Assembly: GCF_023973145.1 (NCBI RefSeq)
Contig: NZ_CP099546.1
Location: 3,596,001-3,660,000, forward strand
From: Natronosalvus vescus
Lineage (GTDB): Archaea; Halobacteriota; Halobacteria; Halobacteriales; Natrialbaceae
Length of the DNA stretch: 64,000 bases
Reading direction: 5' to 3'
Shown: piece by piece, positions 2,409-37,706 of the stretch
How the letters are laid out: each line of letters opens with the position of its first letter
Position numbering within the stretch: the first letter of the stretch is position 1
Translations under genes and position numbers: made by a program
Notes under the pieces: generated by a model
Told to the model about the DNA's origin: nothing
What the model saw: the letters and a program-made list of their open reading frames with translations, nothing else
The model's database searches: none

Positions 2409-4229
2409 ATGCCAGACAACTCAGGTGTATCCCGACGATCATTCCTCAAAGCAACCAGCGCCGGTGCAGCCACGGCAGCAGTGGCAGGGTGCTTCGGTGG
2501 CGATGGGGACGACGATGGAAACGGTAACGGCAACGGTAACGGTAACGGCAATGGTAATGGCGACGATGAGATCTCGAACGTCCAAAAAGCCCAGGATGCC
2601 TGGGATCGGATCGTAGATAACCCCGGACCGGAAGACGAAGATCTGCGTAACGAGGCCTACGTCGAGATGGAAGAGGCCGTACGCGACGACATGATCCTCA
2701 TGCCGTTGTACCACAACCTCAACGAGCGGTTCTGGTACGACCACGTGGACGTCGAACCAACCGGTGCTCTCGGTGGCCACCGCCAGCAACACAACCACAC
2801 CTCGCTCGATGACGGTTCCACTGAGCTGAATCTCATCAACTCGACGGTGTCATCGCTGGACCCCATTCAGTCGACGGACACAGCGTCTGCCGTCATCATC
2901 AACCAGGTGTACGAGAACTTGGTCGACTACCCCGACGGGATTGCCGAACTCGAGAACCAGCTGGTCGAAGAGGTCGATATCTCCGACGACCTCCTGACGT
3001 ACACGTTCACTATCAAAGAGGCCACCTATCACGGTGGCGAAGAGCTGACCGCTGACGACTTCAAATACGCCTGGCGGCGCCTTGCAGAGTCGCCGAACAG
3101 CCAGCGTGCTAACTTCATCCTTGGCTCCGGCTTCCTCGGTATCGACCACGAGACCGACGAGGATGGCGCAGTCGTCCCAGACTCCATCGGTGTGGAGGTC
3201 ATCGACGACCGCACGTTCGAGATGACGCTCGCAGAAGTCGAAGCTGCGGCTCTCGACATCCTCACGTACGACTCCTTCGGTCCAGTTCCTGAAGGCTTCG
3301 TAGACGACATCGAGGGCTACGATGGCGAAGTCACCCAGGAAGAGTTCGCTACCGAAGTGATGAACGGAACCGGTCCGTTCGAGTTCGACGTCTGGGATCC
3401 AGGGACGGAAGCCCGTGTTACCCGCTTCGAGGACTACCACGAGGAACCAGCGAACCTCGAGTCCATCCACTGGCAGATCATCGAAGACGACGAGCCAATC
3501 TGGACGTACATCAACGAGCGAAACGCCGACATCTTCGGCATTCCGACCTCGTACTACGAACAGGATAACATCGACGCCGACGAGGACGATCTCAACCGTG
3601 ACGTTGGGACGTACGGACCGCTCGAGAACGGTGACACGGTCAACTACCTCGGTGTCGCCGAACTCAGTACGTTCTACGTTGCGTTCAACGCAAGCAATGC
3701 ACCACGGGCTGTGCGGCAGGCAGTCGCTTACGTGACCGACCACGAAGAACTCATTAACCTCGTCTTCCAGGGCCGCGGTGAAGAGGCGTGGAGTTTCACC
3801 CCGCCCGGAATCTGGCCCACGGGTGCCGATGCGTATCAGGAGTTTGCAGAATCGTGGCCGTACTCGCCAAACCAGACCGACACGGGTGCAGCACAAGAAG
3901 TGCTCGCTGAAGCCGGCTACACCGAGGACGATCCGTTCGAAATCACGCTGACCACGTATGCGGACGACACCTTCCAGGAGTTCGCTCGCCTTACGCGTGA
4001 CAAGCTCGACGGCACTGGCATCGATCTATCGATCGACGAAGCGGAGTTCAGCACGCTGATCAGCCGTGGCGAAGACGGTGACCTTGCCATGTACACGTTG
4101 GGCTGGATCTGGAGCTGGGCCGACCCCGCATACGGACTGTTCGGCTTCGAACCCGCGAACACCAACACGGATCTGATTCCCGAAGAGGCAGACGGGTACT
4201 ACCTCGACTGGGAAGCTGAAGACGAATAA
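2409..4229 (+). CDS. Peptide-type ABC substrate-binding lipoprotein (SBP_bac_5), apparently circularly permuted
   Basis: A 606-residue extracellular solute-binding lipoprotein. It has a Tat signal (SRRSFLKA, residues 8-15) and a lipobox AVAGC with Cys28, followed by an Asn-Gly repeat linker to about 52. Residues 54-137 then look like the normal C-terminal end of this family: a helix pair, a DDMILMPLYHNLNERFW strand and a GGHRQQHNHTSLDDGS tail. Residues 138 onwards begin like a normal mature N-terminus (TELNLINSTVSSLDPIQSTD) and continue through the SBP_5 core (FTIKEATYHGGEELTADDF). The protein ends at DWEAEDE, just where the C-terminal helix pair would be expected. The paralogue at 36033-37706 keeps the usual order. 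It is the first gene of a five-gene operon; its ligand is probably an oligopeptide or similar. Confidence 0.9.
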   Translation: MPDNSGVSRRSFLKATSAGAATAAVAGCFGGDGDDDGNGNGNGNGNGNGNGDDEISNVQKAQDAWDRIVDNPGPEDEDLRNEAYVEMEEAVRDDMILMPLYHNLNERFWYDHVDVEPTGALGGHRQQHNHTSLDDGSTELNLINSTVSSLDPIQSTDTASAVIINQVYENLVDYPDGIAELENQLVEEVDISDDLLTYTFTIKEATYHGGEELTADDFKYAWRRLAESPNSQRANFILGSGFLGIDHETDEDGAVVPDSIGVEVIDDRTFEMTLAEVEAAALDILTYDSFGPVPEGFVDDIEGYDGEVTQEEFATEVMNGTGPFEFDVWDPGTEARVTRFEDYHEEPANLESIHWQIIEDDEPIWTYINERNADIFGIPTSYYEQDNIDADEDDLNRDVGTYGPLENGDTVNYLGVAELSTFYVAFNASNAPRAVRQAVAYVTDHEELINLVFQGRGEEAWSFTPPGIWPTGADAYQEFAESWPYSPNQTDTGAAQEVLAEAGYTEDDPFEITLTTYADDTFQEFARLTRDKLDGTGIDLSIDEAEFSTLISRGEDGDLAMYTLGWIWSWADPAYGLFGFEPANTNTDLIPEEADGYYLDWEAEDE

Positions 4230-4389: not shown

Positions 4390-5460
4390 ATGAGCCGCTG
4401 GCGATACTTCTTCCAGCGAGTGCTGCTATCGATTCCGATTCTGTTCTTGGTGATGACGCTCATCTTCGTCATCCTCAGAATGGGACCGCTCGATCCGGTT
4501 GCAGCGATGCTTGGACCTGAAGCCAGTGGTGTACAGGCAGAACAAATACGAGAGAATCTCGGATTAAACGAACCGCTGTGGCGTCAGTATATCAACTACA
4601 TGGTTGATCTGATTACGTTCAACTTTGGCCAATCGTACGTCATCCAGTCAGGCAGAAGTGTGAACGCGCTCATCGCCATTTTCGCGCCACGAACGATCTG
4701 GCTGGGATTCTGGGCAGTGTTGCTGCCGCTGTTTATCGGAATCCCACTTGGATTTTATGCCGGACTCAACCCGAATAGCTGGGGGGACTACGTTGCATCG
4801 TTTTCCGGCATCGTCTGGCTTGCCATGCCAAACTTCTGGCTGGCGATTATGATGCTCGCCGTCTTGCGACGAACGCAGGGTGGGGGCTTCCTCGGCTTCG
4901 ATTGGTACACGATCGGACCAGAGGTAAGGAGCCTCATTGGCACGCCACCACTGGATTTCATTGGGTTCGAAGAGTGGCAATCGCTCGGGATGATCCCGAT
5001 GCCGAGTGGATTCTATTTCGACGGCGGGACGCTTGCCGTCGCAATTAAAATGATCCTGCCGGCAGCAATCGTTCTGGGATCAGCGTCGATGGCGACCGAA
5101 CTACGTATTGGGCGCACCGCAATCCTTGAGACGATCAACTCGAATTACGTCGAGACGGCTAGAGCAAAGGGGCTCCCCGGACGGGTGATTCTCTGGAAGC
5201 ACGTCTTCCGAAACGCCTTGATCCCACTGGTTCCAATTATCACGAACGAGGCGTTGTTGTTGCTCGGTGGATCAGTCATTGTCGAGGTCATTTTCGGTAT
5301 TAATGGCCTTGGTCGGCTGTTCTTCCTCTCAGCAACGCAGGGCGACCTGCCACTGGCAGGGGCACTCATCTTTATCTTCACACTGATAACGATCTCGTTG
5401 AACATTCTACAGGACTTCCTGTATACGGTACTCGATCCACGTGTGGGGTATGAACAATGA
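4390..5460 (+). CDS. ABC transporter permease, DppB/OppB type
   Basis: A 356-residue inner-membrane permease of the peptide/nickel ABC class. It has an N-terminal membrane helix (LLSIPILFLVMTLIFVILRM) and five further helices. The cytoplasmic EAA loop is ETARAKGLPGRVILWKH (about residues 254-270), which contacts the ATPase. An insert around residues 155-205 makes it slightly longer than the usual 310-340 residues. It lies 160 bases downstream of the binding-protein gene and its stop overlaps the next start in ATGA. Confidence 0.92.
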   Translation: MSRWRYFFQRVLLSIPILFLVMTLIFVILRMGPLDPVAAMLGPEASGVQAEQIRENLGLNEPLWRQYINYMVDLITFNFGQSYVIQSGRSVNALIAIFAPRTIWLGFWAVLLPLFIGIPLGFYAGLNPNSWGDYVASFSGIVWLAMPNFWLAIMMLAVLRRTQGGGFLGFDWYTIGPEVRSLIGTPPLDFIGFEEWQSLGMIPMPSGFYFDGGTLAVAIKMILPAAIVLGSASMATELRIGRTAILETINSNYVETARAKGLPGRVILWKHVFRNALIPLVPIITNEALLLLGGSVIVEVIFGINGLGRLFFLSATQGDLPLAGALIFIFTLITISLNILQDFLYTVLDPRVGYEQ

Positions 5461-7223
5461 GCATGTCATCTGATGAGACAGACACTGTCTTAACGCTTCG
5501 AGAGCGGATTGCAGCAAATCCACGACCCGCACTCATCTGGGTGGCTGGACTCGCGCTGCTAATCCTCCTCGAGCTTGGTCGAATCGTCGGCTGGATAATT
5601 GCCGCTGGCGGGGCCATTCGAATGGTTCTCGGGTTCGTTCCATCAGTTCCGTGGTGGGTTGGGAACAACGTCGCCGACGGATTAGGTGACGTTGTCGGCG
5701 GTCTGAGCCAGGTCGGTGCAGCCATCGGTTTTGCCGTGACGGCGACACTGCTGTTGCTCGTCGCCGCCTTCTTCATCAAACCGCTGTTCGTTCCGTTTTC
5801 GGTCTCGAAGAAAATCGGGATCGATGCCGAACAGACCGGCCCGGATGCGCTCAGCGAAACCCTGCTCGAGCATATCGTCATCGCTGCCGGAATCGGTGTT
5901 GGCGCTGCCCTGATACTGCTCACGCCACTTAGTGGCGTGCTCGACGTCATTATTGCCAGCGTGACGAACGGACTTGAGTGGATTGCAAACGGTTGGACGC
6001 TCACTGATCGTGAACTGATCTCGAACGAAGGCCATCGGACACCTGACGGCGGATGGGAAGGTACGTTCCTCGGCCTCTCGCCAGCGATTGCCTGGGCTAT
6101 TCGTGTGTTCGTCGTGTACACGTACGCGTTCGCTGCCCTGGTCTGGGTATGGAAGGGGTATACAACCTACCGAAATCACTACCGCGAAGCTGACTGGACA
6201 CCTCGTGACGACTGGGTCAACCGGTTCCGATCCCACTACTGGGGGATTTTCGGACTGATCGTCGTCTTTGGATTCGTCGTACTCGCGCTGTGGGCGCCCG
6301 CACTCGGTGCGGCAAGCGCGGAGGCAAACCTCTACAGTCCATATCAACACGAATTCGAGTACCTGACTGACGATGGTGACGTAGAAACCGTTACCCACGG
6401 GACGGCGAACATCCAGAGTCGATCCCAGGGTGGTGACAGCACCGTCGGACTCATGAGCTACGACGATTACGATCGATGGGCACCGTTAGGGACGAATCCG
6501 GATGGAAAGGATCTGTTTACGTTCCTCGCATATGGCGCACAAACCTCGCTCGTGATCGGACTAGTCGGCATCGGCATTGCGACTTCGATTGCACTGGCGA
6601 TGTCGCTGATCACCGCGTACTACAAAGGAGCCATCGATATCGTCACGATTGTCGTGAGTGATACGTTGATCTCGGTTCCAGTGTTCCTGATGGTGTTGCT
6701 CTTATCAGTAGTCTTCCAGCAGGGCAATCACCCACTGGCCGATATTTATAGCGGGGGATTACTTCTCGCGTTAATTTTCGGAGCCCTCTACTGGCCGGGG
6801 CTCTGGCGATCGATACGTGGGCCCTCGCTGCAGGTTGCCGAACAGGAATGGGTCGATGCAGCCAAAAGCTACGGCCAGACGCCGATGATGACGATGCGGA
6901 AACACATGGCTCCGTACATCCTCAGCTACATCATGATCTACGCATCACTGTTGCTCGGTGGTGTGATTATCGTGACTGCTGCCCTGTCGTTCCTCGGTCT
7001 GGGGATCAACCCACCGACACCTGAATGGGGACGGATGGTGAGCGACGGACGGGCGTACGTTTCGACGACCTCGTGGCACATCGCGACGGTTCCAGGTCTC
7101 ATGATCGTTCTCGTCGTCACTGGATTCAACGCGCTCGGTGACGGCATCCGCGACGCGATGGATCCGGAAAGCGAAAGCAGCGATGCCGGAGCAACGGCTG
7201 CGGCTACAGGAGGTGGTGGGTGA
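5457..7223 (+). CDS. ABC transporter permease, DppC/OppC type, with large N-terminal membrane extension
   Basis: At 588 residues this is about twice the usual length of a DppC permease (around 290-300). The canonical part starts near residue 255 with the helix region HYWGIFGLIVVFGFVVL. It has an extracytoplasmic insert with a Ser/Asp-rich stretch before WAPLGTNPDGKDLF, then the EAA loop EWVDAAKSYGQTPMMTMRKH and the family signature SFLGLGINPPTPEWG. The first roughly 250 residues add several hydrophobic helices (for example LIWVAGLALLILLELGRIV, FAVTATLLLLVAAFF) that DppC proteins normally lack. The second permease operon in this window (34089-34988) has the ordinary 299-residue form. Translationally coupled to DppB. 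Confidence 0.88.
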   Translation: MSMSSDETDTVLTLRERIAANPRPALIWVAGLALLILLELGRIVGWIIAAGGAIRMVLGFVPSVPWWVGNNVADGLGDVVGGLSQVGAAIGFAVTATLLLLVAAFFIKPLFVPFSVSKKIGIDAEQTGPDALSETLLEHIVIAAGIGVGAALILLTPLSGVLDVIIASVTNGLEWIANGWTLTDRELISNEGHRTPDGGWEGTFLGLSPAIAWAIRVFVVYTYAFAALVWVWKGYTTYRNHYREADWTPRDDWVNRFRSHYWGIFGLIVVFGFVVLALWAPALGAASAEANLYSPYQHEFEYLTDDGDVETVTHGTANIQSRSQGGDSTVGLMSYDDYDRWAPLGTNPDGKDLFTFLAYGAQTSLVIGLVGIGIATSIALAMSLITAYYKGAIDIVTIVVSDTLISVPVFLMVLLLSVVFQQGNHPLADIYSGGLLLALIFGALYWPGLWRSIRGPSLQVAEQEWVDAAKSYGQTPMMTMRKHMAPYILSYIMIYASLLLGGVIIVTAALSFLGLGINPPTPEWGRMVSDGRAYVSTTSWHIATVPGLMIVLVVTGFNALGDGIRDAMDPESESSDAGATAAATGGGG

Positions 7224-8569
7224 TGTCGATGGAATCAACACCACAGGCGGCTCACGCCGACACCGACCCGATCGTCGAGGTTCGGAACCTCCAGACGGCG
7301 TTCTACACCGACAAGGAGGTCATTCGCGCCGTCGATGGCGTCTCGTTCGACCTGACGCCCGGTGAAACCGTTGGTATCGTTGGTGAGAGTGGATCTGGGA
7401 AAAGCGTGACCGCTCGCTCGATCATGGGGCTGATCGACAACCCAGGTCGCGTCTTGCCTGGCAGCAGTATTCGCTTTACCCACCTCGAGACGGTGCGAGA
7501 ATTCGCGAAGAAGTTCTCGAAGCGGACGGTCGACGTGAGCCAACTCGAGGCGGAATACGACGTCCGCTCGTTGCTCGATCGACCAAATATCGACGTCAGC
7601 CCAGCCCAGATGGGCTATGAGTCAGTCGACTCGATAACCGTTGCCGACCTGCTTGCCGCGGGGTACGGTGACCAGCTTGGATTGACGGATACCGACGACT
7701 GTGTGTTTATCACCGAGCAATCGGGCGGCGATATCGTCGACGGGTTCATCGAAATCACTCGACTCGAGGGAGAACCCCAGCGAGCCATGCGCGGTAGTAA
7801 AATCGCGATGGTGTTCCAGGATCCGTTGACGAGCCTCAACCCGGTCTATACGGTTGGCAATCAGATCAAAGAGGCACTTCGACTCCACCAGGGACTCCGT
7901 GGACAGGCCGCCACGAAGGAAGCGGTCTCACTGCTGGAGGCCGTTGGCATACCAGACTCGCGACGACGAGTCGCTGAGTATCCTCACCAGTTCTCCGGGG
8001 GGATGCGCCAGCGTGCGGTCATCGCGATGGCACTAGCTTGTGATCCGGAAGTGTTGATCTGTGACGAGCCAACGACGGCACTCGACGTCACGATTCAAGC
8101 ACAGATCCTCGAGTTACTCGATGAGCTGCAGGAAGAACGTGATCTGGCGATCATGTTCATCACCCACGATATGGGCGTTATCGCCGAAGTTGCAGACCGA
8201 GTGAACGTGATGTACGCCGGCGAGACGGTCGAAACGGCTGACGTGCACACACTGTTTGCAAATCCGAAGCACCCCTACACCGAGGGACTGTTACAGTCGA
8301 TTCCTGGCCGACAGGAAGGTGAGCGACTGCAAACTATCGAAGGCAACGTGCCGACGCCGAACGAACCAGCGACGTTCTGTCGGTTTGCACCACGATGTCC
8401 GAAGGCCTTCGAATCGTGTGAGTCCGTTCACCCGGTGTCGGTTCCCGTCGAACTGGGTGCGGACGATCATACGGCAGCGTGTCTATTATATCCTGAAGAG
8501 CTGTCAGAAGTTGACCGAATCGAACGCCATTCCGAAACGAATGAGCAATCGACGGAGGGTGAGCACTGA
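7223..8569 (+). CDS. ABC transporter ATP-binding protein, DppD/OppD type, with inserted domain
   Basis: A 448-residue cytoplasmic ATPase. Walker A is GESGSGKS (54-61), the Q-loop is [11 protein letters not shown] (Gln199), the signature is [16 protein letters not shown], Walker B is [12 protein letters not shown], and the C-terminal peptide-transporter Cys motif is [14 protein letters not shown]. The spacing between Walker A and Q-loop is about 140 residues instead of about 45: residues 82-185 form an acidic, mostly helical insert not seen in OppD proteins such as the 396-residue one at 32782-33972. The ATG at 7223 overlaps the upstream TGA by one base; a GTG one codon earlier is possible. 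Confidence 0.9.
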
Positions 8570-9906
8570 TGAGCCAACGAACGTTACAGTACGAAAATGA
8601 GACGATGGACGAACGAGACGACGTGATGGTCGAAGTGTCTGAACTCCGAACCTACTACGACGAAGGAAAACTATTCGGTGGAAACCCGGTTAAAGCAGTC
8701 GACGGCGTGTCATTCGAAATTAAACGCGGTGAGACGCTCGGCCTGGTCGGTGAATCCGGCTGTGGGAAGACGACGCTCGGCCGAACGCTCGTCCAACTCG
8801 AGGAGGCGACTTCCGGGAAAATTCACTTCGACGGAACCGACGTGACGACACTGAGTGGCACAGAACTCAAAGCCTGGCGGCGCGATGCACAAATCGTCTT
8901 TCAGGATCCCGATTCGAGTCTCAACGATCGAATGACAGTCGGTGAGATTGTTCGCGAGCCCCTCGATGTCCACGACTGGAAGACGCCCAGAGAGCGCCAA
9001 CAGCGAGTGCGTGAACTACTCGAGAAAGTCGGACTCCAGCGTGAACACTACTACCGATATCCACACCAGTTCTCCGGTGGGCAACGCCAACGAATCGGCA
9101 TCGCTCGGACACTGACGCTCGAACCGGAATTTATCGTCCTCGACGAACCGGTGAGCGCACTGGACGTGTCGGTGCAAGCAGAAGTTATCAACTTGCTCGA
9201 AGATCTACAAGACGAGTTCGGCCTGACGTACCTGTTCATTGCGCACGACCTTTCGGTGGTGCGTCATATCTGTGATCGCGTCGCCGTGATGTATCTCGGT
9301 AACATCATGGAGATTGGGCCGACTGAAGAGCTGTTCACGAACCCGGCAAACCCGTACACACACGCATTGTTGTCGGCGATCCCTGAACCGGATCCAACGG
9401 CGTACAAGGATCGGATCACGCTCCAGGGAACGCCACCGAACCCACGGGATCCACCGAGTGGCTGTCCGTTCAGTACACGGTGTCCGGCCCGGATCCGCCC
9501 GGAGGAGTACGAAACCCTCGACAATGCCCTCTGGACGCAACTCGACCTCCTTCGAGAGATCATCCGAGAGCGTAAGCGGGCTGAACGAGGCATTAGCGAT
9601 CGCCTCAAGTCACTTCTCGGTCGCGAGAGTCGCTTCGGTACGATCGAAGAGATTTACGACGAACTGTTCGATGCGGTCGACGTACCGGAATCGATCCAAC
9701 CGGTGCTCGATCAGGTTGCTGAGGACGTTCAAGCCAATGACGAGAGAAGTGCACTCGAGTTACTCAACGAGGAGTTCGGGAGCAGTTGTGACGCGGATAT
9801 TCCGGACTACCATCCCGTGGGTGATGAGGGTCGGGTCAGCCTCTGCCACCGCCACGAGTCAGGATACGAAACGCCCGGCACCGTCATCGATCGGCGTCAT
9901 CGATAA
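8569..9906 (+). CDS. ABC transporter ATP-binding protein, DppF/OppF type, with insert in the C-terminal Cys motif
   Basis: A 445-residue second ATPase of the heterodimer. Walker A is [12 protein letters not shown], the Q-loop is [12 protein letters not shown], the signature is [15 protein letters not shown] and Walker B is [12 protein letters not shown]. The C-terminal oligopeptide-transporter domain normally reads GCxFxxRCxxA, then Cys and CHxH in close succession. Here [12 protein letters not shown] is separated from [17 protein letters not shown] and LCHRH by about 85 charged helical residues ([20 protein letters not shown] onwards). The last gene of the operon; its ATG overlaps the DppD stop by one base. 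Confidence 0.9.
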
Positions 9907-36032: not shown

Positions 36033-37706
36033 TTACCCCTGGTTGTACAGCCGCCAGAACGCTTTCGCGTATCCAACGAGACCGTTATCGACGTAGCCGC
36101 CGACCCGGTTATTGATGCCGTACAGTTCGGCTTCGTTGACGACGAACAGTGCTGGTACATCCTCGGACATCAGCTCTTGTACTTCTTCGTACATCCCGAT
36201 CCGGGCGTCCTGATCGATTTCCGTCCGGGCGTCATCGAGGAGTTGGTCGACTTGCTCGTTGTGATACCACGAGGCGCTTTCCCAGCTGCCGTGAGAATCG
36301 GAGTGCCAGGCAGGATAGAGGAACGTGTCCGGGTCGACGTACGAGAACGACAGGTAAATTGCGTGCATGTCGGACGTCGATTCCGGATCGGTGACCATAT
36401 CCGTAATACGGGTCCACGGGGCACCCTCGAGTTCGAGGGTGATCCCCAGTTCTGCCAGGTTCGTCTGCATCAGAAGGCCGATGTTTTCGGTCACCGTGAG
36501 TCCGCTGACGTACGTGTAAGTCAGTTCGATGTCCTCGCCATCGTAGGGGGATTCATCGAGATATGCCTGGGCCTGCTCGAGATCCCGCTCGTAGAGTGTC
36601 ACGTCGCTGTTGTGTCCCCACATCGCGTCCGGGAGTGGCCCCTGCAGCCGTTCGGCGTTGCCCTCGAGGATATCGTCGACGATGGTGTCGTAGTCGACAG
36701 CGTAGGAAATCGCTTTTCGGACGTTCACGTCGTCGAGTGGTTCCCGCTGATTGTGCATGAATACGTACAGCGGGGAGAAGGTGACTTCGTCGCTGACCCA
36801 CGCGTGATCCATCGAATCGATTTCTTGGTAGGTCTGCAGAGAGAGCCACTCGTCGGTGACATCGGCTTCCTCACTTCCCATCATTCCGTTAATCGTCCCC
36901 TCCTCGGGAACGATTTCCATGACGACTTCGTCAAACGGCTCGCCACCGTCGGGCCACTCTCCCCACCAGTCCTCGTTTCGCTCGAGCACGACCCGTTCGT
37001 TCCGGTCGTGCTCGACGAGTTGATAGGGGCCGCTCCCGGCATCGTTGTCCTGAAGCCACTCTTCGTCGTTGGCTTCGACTTCTGCCTCGTTGACGATCGG
37101 GAGGTACGGCAAGGTGAAAACGAACGGAGCGAACGTACGGTCGGTTTCGATCTCCACCGTCGTATCGTCGACCGCACTGACACCCTCGGGTGACAGCGTA
37201 CCAGCCCACATCCAGGACATCCCCATTTGCATTTCCATCATGCGAGTGATGGAGTAGACCACGTCGTCGGCGGTCACCGGATCGCCGTTGTGGAACGTGG
37301 CATCGTCACGTAACGTGAACTCGTAGGTCTGGTCGTCGTCGGCGACCTCCCAGTCGGTGGCGAGCCCATCGACAAGTTCTGGAGACTCGTCATCGGAGTA
37401 CATCATGAGCGAGTCGTACACGTTGACCGCGTAGATATTCTCGAAGTTGTCGGACACCTGCATCGGGTCGATGGTGCTCGGTGCAATCGTCGTCGCGTAC
37501 ACGAGTGACGAGTCGGCTTCGGTTTCGTCACCGTTCCCGTTCCCGTTTCCGGTACCGTCAGTGTCGTCGTCATCCAGCCCCTCCTCCGGTTCCTCGCCTG
37601 CACACCCGGAAAGCGTGACGGCGAGTCCGGTCGCACCCGCGTATGTGAGCATCTTCCGTCTGGTGACTCCGTCCTCCACCCCTGGAGATTCGTTAGTACG
37701 CCTCAT
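36033..37706 (-). CDS. Peptide-type ABC substrate-binding lipoprotein (SBP_bac_5)
   Basis: A 557-residue extracellular binding lipoprotein with a Tat-type signal (VTRRKMLTYAG, Arg16-Arg17) and lipobox LSGC (Cys35), followed by an acidic Gly/Asn linker. The core has the normal order: LVYATTIAPSTIDPMQVSDN at the mature N-terminus, FTLRDDATFHNGDPVTADDV, and at the C-terminus the helix pair EQVDQLLDDARTEI plus VPALFVVNEAELYG. This is the in-window control for the permuted homologue at 2409. It heads the 37706-31688 operon; context suggests cyclic amides or related amino-acid derivatives as ligand. Confidence 0.92.
   Translation of the reverse strand: MRRTNESPGVEDGVTRRKMLTYAGATGLAVTLSGCAGEEPEEGLDDDDTDGTGNGNGNGDETEADSSLVYATTIAPSTIDPMQVSDNFENIYAVNVYDSLMMYSDDESPELVDGLATDWEVADDDQTYEFTLRDDATFHNGDPVTADDVVYSITRMMEMQMGMSWMWAGTLSPEGVSAVDDTTVEIETDRTFAPFVFTLPYLPIVNEAEVEANDEEWLQDNDAGSGPYQLVEHDRNERVVLERNEDWWGEWPDGGEPFDEVVMEIVPEEGTINGMMGSEEADVTDEWLSLQTYQEIDSMDHAWVSDEVTFSPLYVFMHNQREPLDDVNVRKAISYAVDYDTIVDDILEGNAERLQGPLPDAMWGHNSDVTLYERDLEQAQAYLDESPYDGEDIELTYTYVSGLTVTENIGLLMQTNLAELGITLELEGAPWTRITDMVTDPESTSDMHAIYLSFSYVDPDTFLYPAWHSDSHGSWESASWYHNEQVDQLLDDARTEIDQDARIGMYEEVQELMSEDVPALFVVNEAELYGINNRVGGYVDNGLVGYAKAFWRLYNQG

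Follow-up and report, generated by a model that had tools for sequence, protein, structure and literature searches.

Sequence evidence for a circularly permuted SBP_bac_5 binding lipoprotein in the haloarchaeon Natronosalvus vescus

A binding-protein gene of Natronosalvus vescus, lying in the 64,000-nucleotide stretch of DNA analysed here (the window), raises the question of whether a peptide-type solute-binding protein (SBP) can carry its closing segment at the front of its chain, and of what this order would mean for the point at which the protein is tethered. The original prediction had proposed a circular permutation, with the C-terminal helix pair placed directly behind the signal peptide and linker. 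The encoded protein belongs to the SBP_bac_5 family by its match to PF00496 (204.6 bits against a cut-off of 32.4), which covers residues 180-580 and profile positions 1-360 of 368; the Pfam scan placed no domain over residues 57-137, and none of the NCBIfam equivalog cut-offs was reached. A Dpp/Opp-type ABC importer of four genes (4390-9906), conserved in relatives, adjoins the gene. The features of the locus, and the further permuted proteins considered below, are collected in Table 1.

Table 1. Features of the window SBP and its operon, with the paralogues and plasmid-borne proteins used for comparison.
Feature	Position	Strand	Basis or remark
Window SBP ORF	2409-4229	+	606 aa TAT lipoprotein; ORF and translation as first described
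TAT signal peptide with lipobox, residues 1-28 (SRRSFLK...AVAGC)	2409..2492	+	Cys28 is the predicted lipid anchor
Asp/Asn/Gly linker, disordered, residues 29-56	2493..2576	+	Sequence; pLDDT < 50 over residues 1-53
Moved segment C2, residues 57-137	2577..2819	+	Corresponds to the helix pair and long strand closing the ordinary protein
Joint of old C-terminus (...HNHTSLDDG) and old mature N-terminus (STELNLINS...), residues ~132-141	2802..2831	+	Class A alignment against ordinary termini
Segment N, residues 138-479	2820..3845	+	Mature-protein start in the ordinary order; segment searches
Segment C1, residues 480-606	3846..4226	+	Closes at the new C-terminus GYYLDWEAEDE
DppB-type permease, same operon	4390..5460	+	ORF; homologues directly 3' of class A and ordinary SBP genes
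DppC-type permease, 588 aa	5457..7223	+	ORF, homologues in relatives
DppD-type ATPase, 449 aa	7220..8569	+	ORF, homologues in relatives
DppF-type ATPase, 445 aa	8569..9906	+	ORF, homologues in relatives
In-window SBP_bac_5 paralogue L002, ordinary-order control	36033..37706	-	bN then bC
L008	G000:C1:621615-623276		B2-permuted; first gene of a full permease-ATPase operon
L011	G000:C1 ~647.6-649.5 kb		B2-permuted
L012	G000:C1 ~1548.1-1550.1 kb		B2-permuted
L163, L164, L165, L166	Plasmids of Nitratireductor, Maritalea, Roseomonas, Ketogulonicigenium		B2-permuted, Alphaproteobacteria

The window protein was divided into segments C2 (57-137), N (138-479) and C1 (480-600 or 480-606), and its relatives were taken as the top matches from 244 haloarchaeal genomes. 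Segment searches give the order C2-N-C1 (with C1 as 480-600) in the window protein and N-C1-C2 in ordinary relatives. Segment C2 aligns with the last ~79 residues of the ordinary proteins at 47-68% identity (E 1e-22 to 1e-36), while N and C1 match them at 57-69% and 53-67% identity, respectively. The helix-pair segment thus sits where the original prediction had put it, except that it starts at about residue 57 rather than 54; residue 138 as a mature-type N-terminus and the stop after DWEAEDE were both borne out by the ORF translation. Segment hidden Markov models (HMMs) applied to the fetched ORFs that hold all three segments found 55 in the ordinary order N-C1-C2, 45 in the order C2-N-C1 (class A) and 9 in the order C1-C2-N (B1). 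An assembly error is excluded because dozens of independent genomes have kept the C2-first order, and on these comparisons its occurrence lies far beyond chance.

The break itself can be read from the ordinary relative L021, which is uninterrupted (GYYLDWQAADSENVQKAQDAW) at the place where the window protein has its end (GYYLDWEAEDE) and C2 its start (ISNVQKAQDAW). Alignment over the break sets L021 (GYYLDWQAADSENVQKAQDAWERFENNPDP) against this end and against the front of the window protein (DDEISNVQKAQDAWDRIVDNPGP), and comparison with L021 (DWQAADSENVQKAQDAW) and other ordinary relatives makes the breakpoint exact to a few residues, in keeping with the simple permutation breakpoint proposed at the outset. 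At the joint, the window protein continues after its linker as QKAQDAWDRI...NERFWYDHVDVEPTGALGGHRQQHNHTSLDDG and then passes directly into STELNLINSTVSSLDPIQ... before reaching its end in ...GYYLDWEAEDE. Ordinary C-termini read ...QKYNQTSLDN or ...QQRFNNVTLDK (in their final residues, NQTSLDN or NNVTLDK) followed by the stop, and ordinary mature N-termini read ...ENELNLINSTITTLDPIQ (ENELNLINS). In class A these old ends are fused with 0-6 residues between them, a textbook permutation joint. The open frame of L021 is long (854 aa), but its upstream part is a mere open stretch, and the protein starts at MANETEI. Another ORF, L123 (frame from 4968), encodes 459 aa and holds just one of the three segments, N, divided into two stretches, with C1 and C2 absent; it is a truncated or decayed SBP.

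More distant comparisons place the segments in the same way. In a phmmer alignment with OppA (1b05), residues 419-575 of the window protein correspond to 270-425 and residues 61-108 to 442-490, the second stretch being weak on its own. Profile comparison of the class A alignment with distant paralogues from the same genome places C2 residues 76-105 on 489-519 at a probability of 8%; as this match is weak, it was avoided as proof, which rests on the closer ordinary relatives.

An AlphaFold2 model of the window protein, built with 35 class A sequences, reached a mean pLDDT of 82.3 and a pTM of 0.78. In this model C2 forms two helices (57-70 and 74-94) and a strand (97-109) with a mean pLDDT of ~86. 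Foldseek matched the model to OppA, MppA, YliB, DppA and NikA (E ~1e-20 to 1e-24, probability 1.00) with query TM-scores of 0.44-0.57, values from an alignment that follows sequence order and is not permutation-aware. When C2 was deleted from the AlphaFold run, the pTM fell to 0.60 and the mean pLDDT of residues 138-606 from ~88 to 78; losses of 12-32 pLDDT units extended over residues 358-427, and the strand at 411-426 broke in two, with up to 32 units lost around it. This loss of confidence is what would be expected if C2 belongs to the fold, and is indirect support for it; homology suggests that C2 takes the place in the fold that its counterpart holds in the ordinary proteins.

These data bear on whether the front segment could instead be an extra domain, or a partial duplicate of C2, attached to a protein already complete in residues 138-606. 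The domain scan taken alone does convey completeness, with PF00496 matched nearly end to end; the Pfam model, however, leaves out the final segment, and every ordinary relative closes with C2, the ~79 residues that 138-606 lacks. The window protein holds one copy of C2, at its front, and the model deteriorates when that copy is removed, and we regard an added domain as highly improbable. Neither of the two outcomes named with the original prediction as speaking against it was observed. We therefore take the window SBP to be a functional, circularly permuted binding lipoprotein of the SBP_bac_5 family (cluster C, peptide-type), at a probability of roughly 0.93. In the proposed arrangement, the old C-terminus would have been joined almost without a linker to the old mature N-terminus, and the chain opened in the loop preceding the last helix pair of lobe 2, so that the export signal, lipid-bearing cysteine and flexible linker now feed into the new opening. 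The folded product would be the same two-lobed flytrap, with a predicted ligand that is peptide-like or of another SBP_5 type, and would hand this ligand to the DppB/DppC/DppD/DppF-type importer whose genes follow directly.

The search for the same order in other proteomes, suggested with the original prediction, found C2-N-C1 in several haloarchaeal genera. Class A comprises 34 non-redundant members in haloarchaea, in genera that include Natronosalvus, Natronoglomus, Natronorubrum, Natronococcus, Natrinema, Halopiger, Halorubrum and Halovenus; none was seen outside Halobacteria in plasmid records. Their signal peptides share invariant or nearly invariant R9, R10, A26, G27 and C28. The window protein, with the lipobox VAGC ending at Cys28, matches TIGR01409 above the cut-off and PF10518 (TAT_signal) slightly below it (E 3e-4). 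Segment C2 is under purifying selection, with dN/dS of ~0.06-0.17 against three orthologues, and a Dpp-type operon lies 3' of the class A SBP genes wherever the contig reaches far enough. One class A protein, L162 (G165:C1:2519000-2531000, frame from nt 1364), is preceded in its frame by a protein-kinase-like domain (DVYGLGAITYYALTGEPPF) and a TAT/TM-like segment, as if a membrane kinase employed a permuted SBP for outside sensing.

In the tree of the SBP N region, the class A rows group together, and three ordinary-order rows (L021, L062 and L065) fall within their set. A single class A clade is not rejected by the N region (p-AU 0.175), is borderline rejected by the joined segments (p-AU 0.048) and is favoured by the DppB tree (p-AU 0.82). 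A single origin is the simplest reading of these results, with reversion or exchange possibly affecting L021 and L062/L065. The position of L021 and L154 (G013), L062 and L065, which have the ordinary order yet fall inside the class A set, may also reflect an early branch. The permuted order would most likely have arisen once, at the base of class A, through an intragenic duplication or fusion from which the outer pieces were later lost.

The source genome encodes 13 SBP_bac_5 proteins (14 matches, one protein being split in two), and four of the 13 are permuted. With a common HMM pair, bN and bC, seven paralogues from this genome read bN then bC, while L008, L011 and L012 read bC then bN. The seven include the in-window paralogue that the original prediction had used as its ordinary-order comparison; the order was as described, while its location had to be corrected to the minus strand, since the plus-strand frame contains stops. 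Residues 224-547 of L008 align with 13-329 of structure 8EFZ and residues 53-181 with 338-457. This second order, B2, opens after the helix ending ...AGY and moves ~170 residues, compared with ~80 in class A. Neither L011 nor L012 was found to have a permease homologue next to it. Matches to B2 occur in 70 of 195 Halobacteria genomes, and most of the matches listed are colinear over almost their full length; B2 is widespread in Halobacteria, with a much wider distribution than class A. In the phylum's other classes, the matches of this search extend over the N part only. The alphaproteobacterial B2 proteins carry signals without a lipobox and are annotated 'ABC transporter substrate-binding protein'. 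Tandem B2-type SBP genes occur at G004:C2:224162-228525 and G005:C1:777967-782365, an arrangement that could feed permutation by fusion. The B1 order occurs in the window SBP's own family and opens before the ...AGY helix, after which B2 opens, so that the two probably arose in separate events. By segment order, SBP_bac_5 proteins are permuted in at least three cyclic ways, namely class A, B1 and B2.

The consequence for the tether can be considered against the published domain boundaries of AliD, in which domain I (residues 29-63, 191-296 and 583-617) and domain II (64-190) together make up lobe 1, domain III (297-582) makes up lobe 2, and both natural termini lie within lobe 1 (PMC11192437). 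Since residues 61-108 of the window protein correspond to OppA 442-490, its new ends fall within the domain III region, and the anchor should therefore sit on lobe 2 instead of lobe 1. The anchor shift to the C-lobe that was originally suggested is thus supported by homology, and the expected difference from ordinary relatives would be a membrane tether on lobe 2. In the E. coli DppABCDF system, the DppB scoop motif contacts both lobes (PMC12136057). No matching permease change was found between class A and its ordinary close relatives; their permeases are co-orthologous and similar in length and identity, and likeness between the classes is about that within them. As the permeases of the two orders are alike, there is no sign of the changed docking that the original prediction had also raised. 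The window DppC and DppD (5457-8569) exceed their counterparts in more distant haloarchaeal operons by up to ~100 and ~80 residues, respectively, and in those operons often only DppC from ~181 and DppD from ~178 align; the longer form is common to the window operon and its close relatives.

Whether the new order serves a purpose is a separate matter. In one account, the rotated order adapts the protein to lipid tethering: an anchor on lobe 2 frees lobe 1 or the hinge, or offers the cleft to the permease more favourably, and the independent, repeated permutations reflect selection. The openings of A, B1 and B2 do all fall in the region homologous to domain III (domain limits from PMC11192437), the haloarchaeal members carry lipobox signals, and the authors of TpMglB-2 raised the tethering idea for another permuted SBP (PMC4990184). 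However, domain III accounts for 286 of the 589 residues of AliD, or ~49% of its chain, so that three openings out of three would fall there by chance with a probability of ~0.11; the alphaproteobacterial B2 signals lack a lipobox and the permeases show no matching change. We consider this account unlikely, and somewhat more doubtful still the specific proposal that permutation, repeated at no fewer than three breakpoints, each time shifted the N-terminal attachment from lobe 1 to lobe 2 on account of a benefit of lobe-2 anchoring to lipid-anchored transport. A general tie between permutation and lipid anchoring, also considered, is weakened by the soluble-type alphaproteobacterial B2 proteins.

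The account that we find probable is a neutral rearrangement by duplication and fusion, with no functional consequence, tolerated as the old ends adjoin and the long low-complexity linker leaves the fold independent of the signal. It fits the few residues between the joined ends, the operon and permease type shared by both orders and the existence of soluble-type B2 proteins. Against it, no duplicated or residual C2, as a duplication intermediate would show, was found among the ORFs examined with the segment HMMs; the long conservation of order in class A and B2 fails to separate neutral from selected change. Ordinary function with a relocated tether is the most likely description of the window protein.

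The window SBP shares its family, its Foldseek matches and a Dpp-type permease and ATPase operon with the cluster C proteins OppA, DppA and NikA (PF00496), and differs from them in order, with the final helix pair and strand placed first, behind the lipid anchor. A naturally permuted binding protein has already been described, TpMglB-2 (Tp0684) of Treponema pallidum, a glucose-binding lipoprotein proposed as 'Type Ic / Cluster Bc', in which the permutation adds a fourth inter-lobe crossover (PMC4990184). TpMglB-2 resembles the window protein in being a tethered ABC binding protein with members in several taxa, but is bacterial and has a cluster B sugar-binding fold and another breakpoint (PMC4990184). 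The window SBP falls outside Cluster Bc, being placed with cluster C proteins by both PF00496 and Foldseek. The B2 proteins (L008, L011, L012 and those of Nitratireductor, Maritalea, Roseomonas and Ketogulonicigenium) are closer, as permuted members of the same family that also open in the lobe 2 region; they differ in their opening, larger moved part, wider spread and, in some, absence of a lipobox. A literature search for permuted peptide- or solute-binding proteins returned only TpMglB-2 and engineered biosensors, with no account of SBP_bac_5; permutants of this family are apparently unreported, although their absence from the open literature searched is no proof of novelty.

Few natural permutants have been described among ABC binding proteins, and TpMglB-2 has another fold. 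Here three cyclic orders coexist in a large, well-annotated family, among close relatives that use similar permeases. Domain scans and automatic annotation overlook chain order in SBP_bac_5, and order-dependent alignments and structure comparisons of the permuted proteins go wrong at one end. Permuted scaffolds are useful for biosensor design, and the coexisting orders provide a natural experiment on whether delivery depends on where a binding protein is tethered.
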